This document shows, in pieces, positions 23,954 to 33,873 of a stretch of 53,763 nucleotides of DNA. The stretch is taken from NCBI GenBank assembly GCA_009840735.1, contig VXNF01000058.1, positions 1 through 53,763 of the forward strand, read 5' to 3'. The stretch's first letter is position 1. The number at the start of each line of letters is the position of its first letter. The translations under genes and the position numbers were made by a program. The DNA comes from Acidimicrobiia bacterium (GTDB lineage Bacteria; Actinomycetota; Acidimicrobiia; Acidimicrobiales; CATQHL01). The notes under the pieces are model-generated. The model was not told the origin of the DNA. It made no database searches and was given only the letters and a program-made list of their open reading frames with translations.

Positions 23954-26900
23954 CTACCGCGGCGTCGCCAATGCGCCCTCAGCGGCCCTCGTCGCCGGTT
24001 GGGCCTGTCGCCGCTGCTCGAACAGAGCGAGGGCGTGCAGCGGGAAGTGTTGCCGGTACATCACGTAGTCCAGCAGAGCGGTTCGGAAGAACACACCGGC
24101 GGCATCCTGGGCGGGCCACCGTCCCTGGCTGTCCTGCGTGTCGATCAGGAACCGCGCCCCACGGGAGATCGCCGCCCAGTCCGGGTCGCCGGCCTCCAGC
24201 AGGGCGATCAGTGCCCAAGCCGTCTGAATGACCTGACTCTCGGAGTGCGCCACGTAGCGTCCGCTCGCACAGCCGCTGTGGTGCTCGCCCCAACCGCCGT
24301 CAGCCAGCTGGCGCTCAGCCAGCCAACCACAGGCCGACCGCAGCGCCGGATCCGCAGCGCCAGCGCCGGCGGCCAGCAGTCCCCTGATCCCGAAGAACGT
24401 GCCGTAGATGTACTGGACGCCCCAGACGCCCCGCCAGGAGCCGTCGCGCCGCTGGGTGCGGCGCAACCACGCCTCCGCCCGCTTCACGGCTCGGGCGGCG
24501 TCGCTGCCCAGCACCTGCGGGGCCCGCTCCGCGCAGGCGGCGAACGCCGCGAGGCACGACGCCGTGCATTCCACATGGGAATGCTCGGTCATCGACTCGC
24601 CGAACATCTCCGCCGGGTTCAGCCACTCGAGGCCCACAGCCGAGCGGCGTGACTCGTAGCTGCCGAAGCCCCCGTCGCGGTTCTGGCCCCGCAGCATGAA
24701 GCGCACGGCCTCCCCGAGCGCCTCGGCGTTGGCCCAGTCAGCGTCGGCGGCGAGCAAGCCGCGGACCGCCTCGGCCGTGCAGTCCGTCACCGGCCAGCCG
24801 TGCCACGCCCCGGCGAAACACCAGCCACCCCTCGGGTCGATCCGGTCGGCCGCGGCGAACCCGTCGAAGGAGGCGCCGATCTGTTGGCGGATGAGGAAGT
24901 CAGAGCCGCGCCGCAAGGCGGGCGCGACCTCCCCAGAGGGCGCTGCGAGCGCTAGGGCTTGCAGGGCGAACCCGGTGTCCCAAGAACCGCTCCGGGCGCC
25001 GGCGATGCGGGTTCCGGCCTCCTCGTCCTCCCAGATCCAACCGTCGAGGCGGGCGAGCGCCTTGGCGCAGTCGGCGTCCTCGGGGTCTCGCAGCCACAGG
25101 GCCAGAATGTTCAAGAGGCCGCTCACCGGCGAGATGCTGGTGTGGTCGGTGGTTCGCAGCTCCCACCGAATGCGGTCGAGAAGCGACTCGGCGCAGCGGC
25201 CCCTCAGCCGCTTGCCGCCGAGGCGTCCGTGCAGTCGGGCCAACAGGTAGCCCGCCCGGACACACGCGCTGGGCCGGGCGAACAGGTCGCCTCGGCGCAG
25301 GCGGTTGCGGGAAGCGGCGAAGTGTACGTTCTCGAATCCTTGCGGGTACAGCTCCTCCCGCACGGACTCGATAACAGGCGTCACCGGCGCCTGAGGTTGC
25401 AGGGGGTACACCGCCGCCATCGCCATGTAGATGAGCCGGGTGTGGCAGTACCAGTTCGAGGGATGCAGCGGCAGCCAGCGCGGCAATCGCCACAGCTCCG
25501 CGGGAAGTGGATTGACGCCCCGCCAGTCGTAGAGGTTCAACAGCGCCAGCCAGAACTTCCCCCAACTCGGGATGCCCGTCACGCCCTCAGCGCGCAAGAA
25601 CTTCCCAGCCGGCGCCACGAGGGGATCGTCCCGCTCGACGCCCAGCAGCCGCGCCGCCACATAGACGAGGGCGGTAACGAACAGGTGAGGCGGTGAGTGG
25701 GCGTGCAGGCCCCAGGTGCCGCCCTCTAGGCGAGTGTGCTCGAAGGAGCGCAGCACGAGCCGGCGGCGGTCCGCTTCGAGAGGCTGACCGATGATGTGGT
25801 GCAGCAGCGCGTACTGGGCGGTGAGCATGGGGCACCACACCATCTCGCCTTCCCAGGAGCCGTCGTCTCGCTGGAGGCTCACCAGGTGATCGACGGCGCG
25901 CCCCATGGCGTCGGCGCCCTCGGGCGGCTCGCTGCGGTCAACCTCGAGACTGGGGTCTGGCCGCGGCATGGAGATCAGGAAGGCGTTGGACAGGGTCGCC
26001 CGCGCCCGCTCGGTCTTGGCGGTGACGCCTCCCGATCTGCGCATCTGCAGCATCCCGCGCCACAGCCACAGGAAGCGAAGCGACAGCGCGTTCAGGATGC
26101 CCCCCGCCCGCCGCCAAGCAGACGGCCGATAGGTCCGGGCCGCCTCGGTTGCGGCCGCCCGCAGCGCTGTGGCGCCGCACGCCCAACTCAAGCTGGCGAC
26201 CGACGTGTCCTCACACGCCAGCAAGCGGATCGTGCGGTCGCGGATCGACGGCTTGGAGCGCCACTGCCGGTAGATGGCGCGCCGCAGCGCCGCGGACTCC
26301 GCCCGGGGGTCTGCGAACACTTCGTAGAGGCCCATGGCGAGCAGCTCCGGCGCCCGGGTCGCCCGCAGCCGCTTGCGGGTGAAGTCTCCGAAGCTGCCGC
26401 TTTCGGCCAGCGTGAAGGCGTCGCCGAAGCCGAGGGTCATCCCCACCGCCGTTAGCGGGTGGTAATGGCCGGCGGCGTCGCCGATGAGGACGCGGTAAGG
26501 GTTGCCGTAGGTGTGGCGGGGCCGCAGCGCATTGTTGGCGGCCAGGAAGCGTCGCTGCTGCAGGGCGTCACAGAAGGCGGGCCTCAGGGCGGCGGGCAGC
26601 CAGTCGGCGTAGGAGTCCGCTAGGGCATCGGCGCCCTCCCGAGCGGTGCGCCCCAACGGGATGTCGGCGATCAGCCGGACCGAGCCCGAGTCGAGGCGGT
26701 AGATCAGGATCGGGCCGACTTCGGTGCAGATGACGTGGCCGTAGCCCTCGAAGGGCAGTTCCACGTCGTGCAGGATCACCCCGAGCATGCGCGAGCAGGT
26801 CTGCGGCTTGGCGGGCAGCCCCAAGGACCGGCGAACGACCGAGGCTCGGCCGTCGGCGCCCACGACGAGGCGGGCCGAGACCGACCCGGACTCGCCGTCG

Positions 26901-27325
26901 CGGCTGTAGGTGACCTGCTCGGCGGCGACGCCCCGCACGCGCGCCCTCATCAGCAGGTCCACGCCCGGCTCGCGCGCCACGGCTTCGCGCAGGCGTCTGA
27001 CGAGCCGTTCGTGCTCGGTCGCCAGCCCGTGCAGCCCGTCCGGGTAGGGCAGCAGGATCGGCTCGGAGCGGTCCTCGGGGTACACGACGAACCCCTGCCC
27101 CCGGGCGGTGCGCGCGTCTTGTTCGACTTCGATGCCGAGCCGGCTGAGGATCCGCAGCGCGGGCGGGTGCAGCCATTCGCCGGCCAGCCGCTTGGAGGTG
27201 TTGGGGTTCGCTTCGAGCAGGGCGACCGACGCGCCCCGCCGGGCGTGAGCCAGGGCGCACAGGCTCCCGACCGGCCCGGCGCCGACGACGGCGACGTCGT
27301 AGCGGCGGTCGGCGGCGAGGCTCAC
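23954..27325 (-). CDS. Squalene epoxidase-oxidosqualene cyclase fusion protein
   Basis: One uninterrupted 1123-residue frame encodes two consecutive sterol enzymes. Residues 1-~430 are an FAD monooxygenase of squalene-epoxidase type: GAGPVG at 15-20, VVGADGRASVVR (154-165) and IGDAAGHYHPLTAVGMTLG (281-299), then a hydrophobic helix (409-425) that could anchor it in the membrane. Residues ~470-1123 are an oxidosqualene cyclase: DCTAE at 848-852 (Asp848 protonates the epoxide; hopene cyclases have DXDD instead) and several QW repeats (QRDDGSWEG, QNRDGGFGSYE, QRRDGSWRG, QLADGGWGE). The start GTG overlaps the CYP51 stop (GTGA). M453 is a possible internal start but has no ribosome site, supporting a true fusion. 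Last gene of the operon. Confidence 0.92.
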   Translation of the reverse strand: MSLAADRRYDVAVVGAGPVGSLCALAHARRGASVALLEANPNTSKRLAGEWLHPPALRILSRLGIEVEQDARTARGQGFVVYPEDRSEPILLPYPDGLHGLATEHERLVRRLREAVAREPGVDLLMRARVRGVAAEQVTYSRDGESGSVSARLVVGADGRASVVRRSLGLPAKPQTCSRMLGVILHDVELPFEGYGHVICTEVGPILIYRLDSGSVRLIADIPLGRTAREGADALADSYADWLPAALRPAFCDALQQRRFLAANNALRPRHTYGNPYRVLIGDAAGHYHPLTAVGMTLGFGDAFTLAESGSFGDFTRKRLRATRAPELLAMGLYEVFADPRAESAALRRAIYRQWRSKPSIRDRTIRLLACEDTSVASLSWACGATALRAAATEAARTYRPSAWRRAGGILNALSLRFLWLWRGMLQMRRSGGVTAKTERARATLSNAFLISMPRPDPSLEVDRSEPPEGADAMGRAVDHLVSLQRDDGSWEGEMVWCPMLTAQYALLHHIIGQPLEADRRRLVLRSFEHTRLEGGTWGLHAHSPPHLFVTALVYVAARLLGVERDDPLVAPAGKFLRAEGVTGIPSWGKFWLALLNLYDWRGVNPLPAELWRLPRWLPLHPSNWYCHTRLIYMAMAAVYPLQPQAPVTPVIESVREELYPQGFENVHFAASRNRLRRGDLFARPSACVRAGYLLARLHGRLGGKRLRGRCAESLLDRIRWELRTTDHTSISPVSGLLNILALWLRDPEDADCAKALARLDGWIWEDEEAGTRIAGARSGSWDTGFALQALALAAPSGEVAPALRRGSDFLIRQQIGASFDGFAAADRIDPRGGWCFAGAWHGWPVTDCTAEAVRGLLAADADWANAEALGEAVRFMLRGQNRDGGFGSYESRRSAVGLEWLNPAEMFGESMTEHSHVECTASCLAAFAACAERAPQVLGSDAARAVKRAEAWLRRTQRRDGSWRGVWGVQYIYGTFFGIRGLLAAGAGAADPALRSACGWLAERQLADGGWGEHHSGCASGRYVAHSESQVIQTAWALIALLEAGDPDWAAISRGARFLIDTQDSQGRWPAQDAAGVFFRTALLDYVMYRQHFPLHALALFEQRRQAQPATRAAEGALATPR

Positions 27326-28731
27326 CGGAGGGCGGTCGGTTGGGGTCGCCGCCGGTAACCCAACCTGCACGGCTCGGTGGGGCCGGTCACCCAACTGCCG
27401 TAGTGGGGAGCGGGGACCGGCGTGGTCGCCTCGAAGTCGAAGCGGTCCAGCAGCACGGTCCAGATTGCCTTGAGCTGCAGGTAGGCGAAGCGTTTGCCCA
27501 TGCAGCGGTGCTTGCCGCCGCCGAACCCGATGAGGGCGTAGGTGTGCTGCTTGTCCTCCTGCGCGGGTGGCGCGAACCGGTCCGGGTTGAACCGGTCCGG
27601 GTCGCTGAACACCTCCGGCAGGCGGTGCGAGGCGGCCGGGGACACCATGGCCATGGCCCGCGCCGGCACGACGCGGTCCCGATAGCGCAGCGGCGCCAGG
27701 ACCTTGCGGATCAGCAGGATCAGCGGCGGGTGCAGGCGCTCGCACTCCCGCACGGCGTTCTCGAGTACTGCCTGGCGAGAGAGGCCTGCCAGGCTCACGG
27801 TCCCTGAGTCGCCGTACACCTCGGCCGACTCGGTTCGGATCCGGTCTGCGTACGGCCCGTGGTGCGCCAACTCCAGGCCGATCCAGGTGGCGAGCACCGC
27901 GCTGGTGTGCTGGCCGGCGAACAGCACCGTCAGCAGGATGCCCGCGATCTCCTCGTCGTTGAGGCGTCGCCCGTCGGAGTAGCGGGCGCCCATGAGCGTC
28001 TGCATGAAGTCGTCCGGCTCGACGCCGGCGCGGCGGCGCTCGGACATGACCCGCTCGAACATGGCCGCGATCTGCCGCCGCGCCCGGTCGCGGCTGCGGT
28101 GGGCTGCGGTGGGCAGGCGAGGGAAGAAGAACCCCAGCGTGTTGATGCCGTTCTGCAGGTCGTGGTAGGCGTCGGCGAACCCCTCGTCCACGAGGTCCCG
28201 GACTTCCTGTCCGATGAGGCAGCGGCTGGCGATGCGCACCGTGAGAGCGTTCATGGCGCGCGGCAGGTCGATCTCGCCCTCGGCGCCGAGCGCGTCGGCG
28301 AGGCGGCACGTCTCCTCGAACATGACCGGCGGAAAGGTCTCCATCATGGACTCGCGCAGCGCCGGGTACAGGAAGCCGAGTTGCTCGTCCATGAGCTCGG
28401 TGGAGACGTCATAAGCCACGCCGCGCCCGAAGATCGGCACGGTGAACTGATAGACGTCCTTGGCGCTCAGCTGCGTCTCCGGCGCTCTGAAGTAGGCGTC
28501 GTGCGCCTCGGGCCCGCTGAAGATCACGAACTGCCGCGGCCCTAGCCGGAAGCGGACCAGGTCGCCGTGGTCGTGGGCGGCGCGCCGCAGCATCGCAACC
28601 GGTTCTCGCTGGAACTCCCGCAGATGCCCGACCAGGGGCTGCGCCCCGGAGAGTTCGGGAGGCGCTGCGCCGGCCGTCGCCCCCGCGCCGTTCGAGGGCG
28701 CCGTGGTCGCTTGGGGCGGTGCCTGTGCCAT
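27322..28731 (-). CDS. cyp51: CYP51-like sterol 14alpha-demethylase cytochrome P450
   Basis: A 469-residue P450 that should remove the 14alpha-methyl of a lanosterol/cycloartenol-type sterol, using O2 and a reductase. The I-helix FAGQHTSAVLATW (271-283) has the AGQHTS typical of CYP51; ExxR is E329-R332; the heme loop FGGGKHRCMG has Cys410. The B'-C region VYQFTVPIFGRGVAYD (93-108) also matches CYP51. The first ~28 residues are low-complexity and no transmembrane anchor is seen, as in other bacterial CYP51s. ATG 28731 lies 7 bases from the reductase stop. It overlaps the fusion gene by 4 bases. No ferredoxin gene is in the cluster. Confidence 0.92.
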   Translation of the reverse strand: MAQAPPQATTAPSNGAGATAGAAPPELSGAQPLVGHLREFQREPVAMLRRAAHDHGDLVRFRLGPRQFVIFSGPEAHDAYFRAPETQLSAKDVYQFTVPIFGRGVAYDVSTELMDEQLGFLYPALRESMMETFPPVMFEETCRLADALGAEGEIDLPRAMNALTVRIASRCLIGQEVRDLVDEGFADAYHDLQNGINTLGFFFPRLPTAAHRSRDRARRQIAAMFERVMSERRRAGVEPDDFMQTLMGARYSDGRRLNDEEIAGILLTVLFAGQHTSAVLATWIGLELAHHGPYADRIRTESAEVYGDSGTVSLAGLSRQAVLENAVRECERLHPPLILLIRKVLAPLRYRDRVVPARAMAMVSPAASHRLPEVFSDPDRFNPDRFAPPAQEDKQHTYALIGFGGGKHRCMGKRFAYLQLKAIWTVLLDRFDFEATTPVPAPHYGSWVTGPTEPCRLGYRRRPQPTALR

Positions 28732-28738
28732 CGCGGGC

Positions 28739-29845
28739 TCAGTAGAGGTAGGGGACCATGGAGTAGCGGACCCGCTCGGTGTAGCGCCGCCAGAGGTCCC
28801 CGTACTTGGCGGCGCAGCGACGGTCGTCCCGCCGGGAGCGGTGTACCAACAGCCCGGCCAGCCAGGCAGGGAGCAGGAAGGGCACCCACGACCTGCCGCC
28901 GGCACACAGCGCGAAGGACAGGTACACGCAGATCTCCCCGGTGTAGTTGAGGTGCCGGCCGAGCCCCCAGAACCCCGAGACCAACAGCCGACCGTCCAGC
29001 GCCTCCGCCGGCCGTCCCCACACGGCGCAGGCAGGGTCGTTCTTGAAGCGATGCTTCTGGTCGTTGGCACCCCGGAACATCCAGAACCCCAGCGAGAACA
29101 GCACGCAGATTCCTGCGGCGGCGAGCGGGGTGAGCGTCTCTGGCTGGTGAATGAGCGACCAGCCCACGATGCAGTAGAAGAAGGGGACGAGGACGTAGTC
29201 GCCCCAAACCAGCATCCAACCGAACCGCTCGCTCAGCATGTCCCAGGTGTTGACCATTCCCTGCTCGAACTGGAAGTAGTTGAGAACGTAGGCGAACGCC
29301 AACACCTGATAGAGGACCATGCCGAGGGTGAGCCGACCGTAGGTCTCGTGTTGCACGACAGCGAAGGACACGTTGAGCAGGGCGAGGCCGATGAGCGACG
29401 GCCGGTAGCTGAACAGCTTGAGGTCCACGCCCGCCAGCGCGGGGTTCAGCTCGGTGCCGAAGAAGTATCCCCGCCACAAACCAGCGGGGCGGTTCGGTGA
29501 GCGTCGGCCACGCGCGTACAGCCAGCCCGACAGCCCGAAGGCGAACACGTTGGCTGCCACGAACAGAGCGGTGAAGTGAGAATGCAAGCCTGCCAAGGGC
29601 GAGCGGTAGAGCAGGCCCAAGAGGATCGCCGCCAGCATGGTCGCCAGGAAGACAACCATGCCGTTGACCTTGTAGACGCACCGCTTGCCGTTCAGCGGCG
29701 GCCCCTCGATCCTGCGCCCCGGCAGAACTGCGGACGCGGCGAAAAGCGCAGCGACGAAGCCGCCGAGGACGGCCGCGGCGACGGCCAGGGTCGCCGGAGA
29801 CACCCGAGAGAACGAGAAGTACCAGTCAGACAACTGCGGTGACAC
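28739..29845 (-). CDS. ERG24/ERG4-family sterol reductase (probable C14 reductase)
   Basis: A 368-residue polytopic membrane protein of the sterol-reductase family that includes Delta14-reductase (ERG24, TM7SF2), Delta7-reductase (DHCR7) and Delta24(28)-reductase (ERG4). The two family signatures are GTELNPALAGVDLKLFSYRP (~130-149) and LLVSGFWGLGRHLNYTGEIC near 285-304, with the C-terminal YSMVPYLY. NADPH is the expected donor. Being directly before the 14alpha-demethylase favours Delta14 reduction, because CYP51 creates the Delta14 bond. An ERG4-like role after C24 methylation is the alternative. GTG 29845 starts 20 bases inside the SdmA gene. Confidence 0.88.
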   Translation of the reverse strand: MSPQLSDWYFSFSRVSPATLAVAAAVLGGFVAALFAASAVLPGRRIEGPPLNGKRCVYKVNGMVVFLATMLAAILLGLLYRSPLAGLHSHFTALFVAANVFAFGLSGWLYARGRRSPNRPAGLWRGYFFGTELNPALAGVDLKLFSYRPSLIGLALLNVSFAVVQHETYGRLTLGMVLYQVLAFAYVLNYFQFEQGMVNTWDMLSERFGWMLVWGDYVLVPFFYCIVGWSLIHQPETLTPLAAAGICVLFSLGFWMFRGANDQKHRFKNDPACAVWGRPAEALDGRLLVSGFWGLGRHLNYTGEICVYLSFALCAGGRSWVPFLLPAWLAGLLVHRSRRDDRRCAAKYGDLWRRYTERVRYSMVPYLY

Positions 29846-32289: not shown

Positions 32290-32850
32290 TCAGAATCGAC
32301 CGCGCTGGGCGGCACGCAGCACGTTGCGCCCGTAGATCCGCAGCGTGCGGATCAGTGTCGTGAAGTCGAGCGTGCTGAAGATGGTGTCGGCCACCCCGAA
32401 CGGCAACATGGTGGGTATCCCGCCGCGGGCGTATTCGAGGATCCAGGCGCCGTCCACCATGCGGTACGACTTCGCCTGACCTCGGCCCAGGTGGAACGAC
32501 TCGCCGCGGCGGTACTCCTGGCGTCGCAGGTCGCCTTCTCCGAAGTACCACATCTCGCCGTCGAGGATCACCATGTCGTCGGCCGCCCAGCGATAGCGCC
32601 CGGTGTGGCCCATGTTCCCGATGGGGTTGCCGAAGAAGATTACGTACTCGCGCAGCGAGGCGTACAGGATGGCGATCTGGCCCATGGCGCCGCCGGCGTT
32701 GGACAGGAACCACTCCGGCTCGGTGTCGATGAGGCCCGGATAGCGTTCGGCCAGGTCTGCGATGATCGCCGGGAACATCTCCTCCAGCGGCAGATCGAGG
32801 TGGGTGTGGGCCACCTCCCGCAGCACCGCCGGGTCGAAGACGTACTTCAT
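32290..32850 (-). CDS. ERG2/sigma-1-receptor-type sterol C8 isomerase
   Basis: A 186-residue protein that matches the ERG2_Sigma1R family almost end to end: YVFDPAVLREVAHTHL (3-18), WFLSNAGGAMGQIAILYASL (47-66), EYVIFFGNPIGNMGHTGRY (68-86) and WILEYARGGIPTMLPFG (136-152). Glu139 aligns with the catalytic Glu of the Delta8-Delta7 isomerase/sigma receptor fold (Glu172 in human sigma-1, from memory). The N-terminal membrane helix of the eukaryotic proteins is missing, so it starts directly at the cupin-like domain. It should move the Delta8 double bond to Delta7. ATG 32850 is 3 bases after the methyltransferase stop. Confidence 0.9.
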   Translation of the reverse strand: MKYVFDPAVLREVAHTHLDLPLEEMFPAIIADLAERYPGLIDTEPEWFLSNAGGAMGQIAILYASLREYVIFFGNPIGNMGHTGRYRWAADDMVILDGEMWYFGEGDLRRQEYRRGESFHLGRGQAKSYRMVDGAWILEYARGGIPTMLPFGVADTIFSTLDFTTLIRTLRIYGRNVLRAAQRGRF

Positions 32851-32853
32851 CGC

Positions 32854-33873
32854 TCAGCCGGGCTTGCGGGCCAAGAAGCAGTACAGCGGCGTGAACACCC
32901 CGGCGCGGCCGCCGGCGACGAGCGCGTCACCCCCTGCGTTGAGGATCGTGCTGACCGCCGCGGCGCCTTCGGGCGCCAGCCGCAGCCGCTGCGCGACCCG
33001 CAGCGTCATGTTGATTAGGGCGCGCCCGGCGGGGGTGCGCGGAATGCTCGCCAGGCTGAGGTCCCGGCCTTGCAGGGCGCGGTACCAGGGAGTGTCGGGG
33101 TGCGACTCTGCGGCGCGGTCGCCCTCGGTCAGAATCTCGAACCCGGCGGCGGCCAGCGCGGCGCGGACCTCAGCGTTGTCCCCCAGGTCGGGCAGCCCAG
33201 CGCCGATGAGGATGTCTCGCTTGATCCGCTGGTGCTCGGGGTCCTGCGGGTCGAATCGTTCGGTCAGGCACCACTCCTGGCCCAAGAAGCAGGCGCCGGG
33301 TCGCAGCACGCGGAGTATCTCCGCGAACACCGCGCCCCGGTCGGGTGCATGGCACATTGACTCGATGGCGATCGCCGCGTCGAACCGGTCGTCCTCCTCT
33401 GGGATCTGCATGAAGTCGCCGTGGATGAAGCGGCACAACGAGGCGACGTCACGGGTGTGATGTTTGGCCCGTTCGATCTGGTAGGCGTTGAGGTTGAGGC
33501 CGACCATGGTGGCGCCGTAATGGCGGGCGAAGGTGCCCATCGGCCCGCCGACGCCGCACCCGGCGTCCAGCACCGTCATCTCGGGCCCCAGCGACAGCTG
33601 GGCGGCGAGCGAATGCTGGTGGCGCAGGAGGGACGCCTTGAGGTTCTCACCTCGTTCCCGCGGGGCGAAGTGGAACGAGGTGCCCCAGCCGAACTCGTAG
33701 AAGTCCGTGGCCAAGTCGTAGTACTGGGTGACGAGCGACCGGTAAAGCTCTCTTCTGCGCTCGGGGTCCGCGTCCTGGCTCTCGATGTACTCCTCGAGGA
33801 CCGGCCGCACCTGTGGAACGGTCAGCGCCGACCAGGTTCGTTGGCGCGGTCCTTTGGCGGTTGTCGGGGTCAT
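32854..33873 (-). CDS. Sterol 24-C-methyltransferase (ERG6/SMT type)
   Basis: A 339-residue SAM-dependent methyltransferase. The sterol-binding signature reads YYDLATDFYEFGWGTSFHFA (51-70), nearly identical to region I of ERG6/SMT enzymes. The SAM motif is LDAGCGVGGPM (102-112), and IAIESMCHAPDR (168-179) and GQEWCLTERFD (198-208) match later SMT regions. The expected reaction adds a methyl to C24 of a Delta24 sterol. It is the first gene of the locus, transcribed divergently from a secreted-protein gene, with only a weak ribosome site before ATG 33873. gamma-Tocopherol or other methyltransferases share the fold, but the YEFGWG segment and operon favour sterol. Confidence 0.9.
   Translation of the reverse strand: MTPTTAKGPRQRTWSALTVPQVRPVLEEYIESQDADPERRRELYRSLVTQYYDLATDFYEFGWGTSFHFAPRERGENLKASLLRHQHSLAAQLSLGPEMTVLDAGCGVGGPMGTFARHYGATMVGLNLNAYQIERAKHHTRDVASLCRFIHGDFMQIPEEDDRFDAAIAIESMCHAPDRGAVFAEILRVLRPGACFLGQEWCLTERFDPQDPEHQRIKRDILIGAGLPDLGDNAEVRAALAAAGFEILTEGDRAAESHPDTPWYRALQGRDLSLASIPRTPAGRALINMTLRVAQRLRLAPEGAAAVSTILNAGGDALVAGGRAGVFTPLYCFLARKPG

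Follow-up and report, generated by a model that had tools for sequence, protein, structure and literature searches.

The window analysed here, a stretch of 53,763 nucleotides from an Acidimicrobiia bacterium, carries a gene for an ERG2/sigma-1-type protein inside a cluster of sterol genes (Table 1). The ERG2-like frame begins with an ATG at 32848-32850 of the minus strand; the plus-strand frame over 32290-32850 is presumably open by chance only. All members of the cluster lie on one strand, in the order of transcription SMT, ERG2, SdmB-like, SdmA-like, ERG24, CYP51-like and squalene epoxidase (SE) fused to oxidosqualene cyclase (OSC), and the SMT stop ends 3 bases ahead of the ERG2 start codon. 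The flanking genes (his-, asp- and ala-tRNA synthetases and shikimate dehydrogenase) are ordinary bacterial genes.

Table 1. Coordinates of the sterol gene cluster in the window, in order of transcription
Feature	Position	Strand	Basis
Sterol C-24 methyltransferase (SMT/ERG6-like), 339 aa	32854..33873	minus	Pfam Sterol_MT_C 1.3e-17 and methyltransferase domains
TGA: stop of the SMT gene and same-frame barrier to N-terminal extension of ERG2	32854..32856	minus	Frame inspection
ERG2/sigma-1-type sterol C-8 isomerase (predicted function), helix-less, 186 aa	32290..32850	minus	Pfam, PDB, alignment
SdmB-like C-4 sterol dehydrogenase, 379 aa	30962..32101	minus	NF052578 5.5e-87, 292.6 bits, below cut-off 600
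SdmA-like Rieske C-4 methylsterol monooxygenase, 379 aa	29826..30965	minus	NF052579 1.4e-115, 386 bits, below cut-off 600; Rieske domain
ERG24-like delta14-sterol reductase, 368 aa	28739..29845	minus	Pfam ERG4_ERG24 2.7e-70
CYP51-like P450 (part of open frame 27322-29070)	27322..28680	minus	Pfam p450 2e-56
Squalene epoxidase fused to oxidosqualene cyclase (part of open frame 23954-28309)	23954..27301	minus	Pfam SE 2.1e-22, SQHop_cyclase_N, SQHop_cyclase_C

Identity of the ERG2-like protein and its cluster

ERG2_Sigma1R (PF04622) is the sole Pfam family of the protein at E<=1e-3 (8.6e-61), with a score of 205.4 bits against a curated cut-off of 21 and coverage of profile positions 21-206 of 210. 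In line with this, a PDB sequence search returned sigma-1 receptor chains (E 2.2e-36 to 1.7e-34), and the two results together uphold the preliminary description of a 186-residue member of this family. A fifth PDB match, ribosomal, at E 0.0056, was taken as chance. An AlphaFold2 model built from 25 aligned sequences was of moderate quality (mean pLDDT 64.4, pTM 0.57). Against the PDB, Foldseek gave 42 matches for it at E<=0.001, all to sigma-1 receptor (E 4.8e-13 to 1.7e-11), with TMq 0.60-0.66 and an rmsd of about 8; the fold assignment is therefore sound, and the model unfit for geometry. No match to the EBP family was found by Pfam at E<=1e-3, and since PF04622 is the only family at that threshold, an EBP-type isomerase is ruled out. 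The protein is of a known kind, as a paper on Ircinia sponge symbionts already places ERG2 in several steroid clusters (PMC9531527).

Among the neighbours, the P450 contains YQFTVPIFGRGVAYD and GQHTS, and no CYP51 model in NCBIfam matched it; we take both motifs to be CYP51 signatures. The cyclase scored 687 bits with TIGR03463 (osq_cycl), below the cut-off of 851, and carries DCTAE, presumably an OSC signature. Epoxidase and cyclase were observed to share one continuous frame (window 23954-27301); the methods section of another study refers to such fusions (PMC10070321). Members of the fatty-acid-hydroxylase family, which might include a C-5 desaturase, occur in 4/10 cluster genomes, the window's own included, and the end product may be delta5,7 or delta5.

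Absence of the N-terminal helix in bacterial relatives

The protein had been described as lacking a membrane helix, and the reading frame confirms it: an in-frame TGA sits two codons upstream of the ATG, so that an N-terminal helix cannot be encoded in this gene. The extended ERG2 family match contains one TGA inside. Because the match of the window protein starts at profile position 21, the helix does not define the ERG2_Sigma1R domain family.

We applied a start-codon extension and hydropathy test to 45 bacterial rows, the window among them, taking the longest extension of at most 80 residues that starts with ATG, GTG or TTG and looking for 19 consecutive residues with a mean hydropathy of at least 1.6. 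None of the 45 had the capacity to encode an N-terminal helix by this test; the yeast ERG2 N-terminus, used as control, scored 2.3. A start codon lies no more than 12 residues from the core in 42/45 rows. L024 was retained in the count despite having no ATG, GTG or TTG before its core; the L002/L035 sequence, which stands outside the 45, starts two residues before the core and has no hydrophobic stretch (0.38). Absence of the helix is the norm among the sampled bacterial relatives. The notion of an unusual, trimmed form consequently fails, as no bacterial row could carry a helix and the window's own clade lies mostly in sterol clusters. In the open-licence literature we recognised, by title or abstract, no study that deals with bacterial ERG2 lacking its helix.

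The C-terminal segment 163-182 of the window protein is amphipathic (moment 1.55, mean KD 0.11), and the protein is probably attached to the membrane peripherally. Of the earlier suggestion of a soluble or peripheral ancestor, the peripheral attachment is probable, and the status of ancestor is conceivable only at the level of the entire family.

Bacterial relatives, their neighbourhoods and the family tree

Among close relatives, PF04622 was found in 2/60 genomes (the window's own and one of seven congeners), in the class in 1/395 (its own only) and across the phylum in 5/396, its own included. It occurs in 19/282 genomes of the phylum of a Myxococcales MAG (L027) and in 1/398 of the phylum of a Gammaproteobacteria MAG (L025), the one being L025's own. 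A contig scan with a three-sequence alignment, a six-sequence alignment having been judged too diverse, yielded 25 loci; these were reached through two peptide patterns only, so the sampling of loci is partial. Neither of two pattern stretches on viral contigs was a relative.

Twelve loci (L013-L024) encode proteins 68-76% identical to the window protein. All are bacterial, with titles naming Acidimicrobiia, Gammaproteobacteria, Opitutales, Rhodothermales, Alphaproteobacteria and one unassigned bacterium, and this level of identity across phyla suggests lateral spread. In nine of them OSC, SE, P450, ERG24, SdmA and SdmB lie beside ERG2 within the fetched flanks. SMT is directly upstream of ERG2 in seven (L014, L015, L016, L018, L019, L020 and L024) and was not found in the fetched flanks of the L017 and L022 clusters. 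The fetched stretches of L013, L021 and L023 held no sterol gene besides ERG2, and these three genomes carry OSC elsewhere (68-73% identity).

Within the genus, whose genomes are 75-96% complete, SE-OSC is present in 8/8 and ERG2 in 2/8, which suggests that the ERG2 step is dispensable there or done differently. In the ERG2-bearing congener the surroundings of ERG2 yielded no further sterol gene, nor were SdmA, SdmB, SMT, ERG24 or ERG2 found around SE-OSC in seven congeners (L038-L044), one of these stretches spanning no more than 4 kb. Five congeners and the window's own genome share another type of SMT, with about 40-44% identity to the window's, and a Rieske gene lies nearby in at least three congeners. 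The genus thus possesses a sterol capacity, the compact cluster of the window being a variant and ERG2 its variable part. The window OSC groups with those of the congeners (86/74, not starred), and the window SE is 65-67% identical to theirs, as against 53-59% in nine clusters of L014-L024; a recent transfer of the whole cluster into the genus as one block is therefore unsupported.

A second bacterial clade comprises eight rows of Actinomycetota and Spirochaetota (100/98). Queried with the window OSC, four of its eight genomes (G791, G793-G799) returned no match and one a 69-residue fragment at 32 bits; the remaining three gave 134-147 bits, the level of hopene-cyclase-like second matches elsewhere (105-163 bits), OSC-type genes giving at least 420 bits. 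As some of these genomes are incomplete MAGs, the absence of OSC is provisional. In this clade the ERG2-like gene has a protein kinase as neighbour in L030, a pectate lyase in L029 and, directly upstream, a short-chain dehydrogenase in an actinobacterium (L032:9128-10669) and a Treponema MAG (L034:1616-3624), two genomes with no OSC match. Divergent ERG2-like genes also occur in genomes with no OSC match: in G074 and G361 a P450 ends just before the gene. Among actinobacterial loci of this sort, three (L009:7160-8904, L010:8942-10722, L011:6905-8861) have the gene right after another, which is a P450 in L009 and L011. These three possibly serve steroid modification or catabolism.

Window-type sterol genes besides ERG2 were found in three of 14 Myxococcota stretches: CYP51-, SE-, ERG24- and OSC-like genes in L093, an SdmB-like gene in L094 and an ERG24-like gene in L102. 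With the window genes as queries and within the fetched stretch, ERG2 stood alone in the other 11, which reflects either a limit of the queries or scattered genes. In the single-contig genome of L093, a helix-less ERG2 lies within 9 kb of the CYP51-, SE-, ERG24- and OSC-like genes. The GGR motif YxWxFP was not found in the fetched region of the single-contig Myxococcota genome G977. A further observation concerns the Myxococcales MAG: next after its ERG2-like gene comes a Rieske gene whose product has the C-terminal domain of 3-ketosteroid 9alpha-hydroxylase (L027:9971-11652).

The family tree was built from 48 rows (45 bacterial, three eukaryotic) and 184 columns. Left out were L037 (a fragment), L002 and L035, which appear to be one contig, both being 67,400 long, and three rows regarded as duplicates: L006 of L013, L080 of L027 and L082 of L025. 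The yeast ERG2 row of alignment and tree is a sequence that we take to represent that protein. The window pairs with L013 (96/93) inside a 13-row clade from several phyla (100/99; 94/94 with L025 added). Yeast ERG2, like sigma-1 a long branch, groups with five helix-less Myxococcota rows (100/99). A single clade of the three eukaryotic rows was rejected (p-AU 0.008; 0.0085 without the four long branches L003, L004, L005 and L081), and so was a clade of the window group and yeast ERG2 that excludes the Myxococcota (p-AU 0.004). With only three eukaryotic rows, the direction of transfer is undecidable from the tree.

These results bear on the proposal that the gene was gained from a eukaryote and trimmed. 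A recently acquired host or fungal ERG2 stripped of its helix would accord with ERG2 being best known from fungi and with hosts being near at hand, the related clusters coming from MAGs probably of sponges or reefs. Yet the 12 other rows of the clade are all bacterial at 68-76% identity, SdmA/SdmB-like genes, a bacterial type of C-4 demethylation, are present at 9/12 clade loci, no bacterial row could encode the helix, and the tree places yeast ERG2 with Myxococcota and rejects its union with the window group. We regard such a gain as very unlikely. The preliminary description had also named, as a finding that would refute it, membership of a sizeable bacterial family whose role lies outside sterols. 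Half of this applies: the protein does nest among bacterial homologues, and another of their clades comes from genomes where no OSC was found, but its own clade is linked to sterols.

The family-wide pattern fits a helix-less bacterial form to which the anchor was added in eukaryotes. A wider scenario, which we put forward only tentatively and think rather unlikely, would have the whole ERG2/sigma-1 family begin in bacteria as a helix-less peripheral sterol isomerase, fungal ERG2 and animal sigma-1 going back to separate bacterial lines or to a duplication in the distant past. Yeast ERG2 would stem from a Myxococcota-like lineage, and the anchor of ERG2 and sigma-1 would be an addition made in eukaryotes. 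If so, the Actinomycetota/Treponema clade, where no OSC was found, would have a second use of the fold. In one source, Myxococcota are proposed as the origin of sterol synthesis in the eukaryotic ancestor (PMC12004948).

Proposed function and comparison with known systems

Glu139 of the window protein aligns with Glu172 of human sigma-1, as expected from its earlier designation as the key Glu. Its column holds E in 44/44 other bacterial rows, that of Tyr140 holds Y in 44/44 and that of Arg142 holds R in 43/44. Asp126, the partner of Glu172 in sigma-1, is absent from the window protein, where the column is Met93 and Asp91 stands two columns earlier. This sigma-1-124 column holds Asp in the window protein, yeast ERG2 and 18/44 other bacterial rows; 23/44 have Asp in the sigma-1-126 column, as sigma-1 does. 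By its Asp column, the window protein is of the ERG2 sort rather than the sigma-1 sort. Across the family we observed that the acid partner of the key Glu uses either of two columns two residues apart, most of the family being split into ERG2-like and sigma-1-like; since residues two apart on a strand face alike, the acid may have slid one step with the contact kept.

The window protein is in all likelihood a bacterial sterol C-8 (delta8 to delta7) isomerase that acts late in C-24-alkylated sterol synthesis and is held peripherally at the membrane. Its substrate would be a delta8 sterol made by the SE-OSC, CYP51, ERG24, SdmA/SdmB and SMT of the cluster. Glu139 and a nearby Asp (D91/D92) would protonate and deprotonate the sterol nucleus, moving the double bond to delta7, and the expected product would be a C-24-alkylated delta7 sterol, as when ERG2 follows ERG6 in yeast. 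The anchor-free protein would reach its substrate probably by lying on the membrane via its C-terminal helices. This reading is supported by the family match, the sigma-1 matches in sequence and fold, the one-strand sterol cluster, the conserved neighbourhoods of the clade, the invariant Glu column, the Asp column shared with yeast ERG2, the sterol genes near the helix-less ERG2 of L093 and the amphipathic C-terminal segment; our confidence is lowered by the patchy presence of ERG2 in the genus, the lone ERG2 of the congener, the scores of several pathway genes below NCBIfam cut-offs, the Myxococcota stretches with ERG2 alone and the model pLDDT of 64.

The fold, which matches sigma-1 receptors, would also suit a sigma-1-like binder of sterols or other ligands, or a chaperone, with no catalysis; to our knowledge, sigma-1 receptors have no isomerase activity. 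We find this highly improbable, as the Asp lies in the column of yeast ERG2 and not in that of sigma-1, the gene adjoins SMT within a biosynthetic cluster, and the tree joins yeast ERG2 to bacterial rows rather than to sigma-1. An isomerase with another outcome, for instance delta8 to delta8(14), or one acting on an intermediate before SMT, would agree with the L017 and L022 clusters, where SMT was not found, and with one paper's discussion that 8(14)-sterols of certain eukaryotes may be made by C-8 isomerase orthologues (PMC13277303). Against it speak the acid pair, which is that of yeast, and the delta14 reductase of ERG24 type in the cluster, and we hold it to be a slight prospect at most. 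Elsewhere among bacteria, a C-8 isomerase is reported in Methylotuvimicrobium (PMC13277303) and a C-8 isomerisation homologue in the Calothrix cluster (PMC10202945).

An ERG2/sigma-1 fold in a nearly complete bacterial cluster for C-24-alkylated sterols bears on the use of steranes as eukaryote markers. Small, naturally anchor-free proteins become available for assay and crystallisation of this family, and whether catalysis requires the anchor becomes directly testable. The finding is now most useful for asking how the family came by its anchor, the family context being more interesting than the lone protein.

With fungal ERG2 (yeast sequence), the window protein shares the fold family, the invariant Glu, the Asp column and the neighbouring SMT/ERG6 step; it differs in having no N-terminal helix and in belonging to a bacterial operon where C-4 demethylation is of the SdmA/SdmB-like kind. 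The second type of delta8-delta7 isomerase, EBP, catalyses the same reaction as proposed here with a fold unrelated to that of ERG2/sigma-1. An EBP-type isomerase is reported from Nannocystis (PMC10152446). The Ircinia symbiont clusters likewise combine a bacterial ERG2 with SMT, OSC, CYP51 and ERG24, and Acidimicrobiia are among their classes; by contrast, in the excerpted text SdmA/SdmB are not annotated by the pipeline used and the helix goes unmentioned (PMC9531527). The sigma-1 receptor (PDB 5hk1, 7w2b), presented in a 2023 paper as an evolutionary isolate with yeast ERG2 as its only known homologue (PMC10094450), has the same fold, its Glu172, Tyr103 and Arg175 corresponding to Glu139, Tyr69 and Arg142; the window protein differs from it in having no helix, in Met93 at the Asp126 column and in the place of its gene within a sterol cluster.
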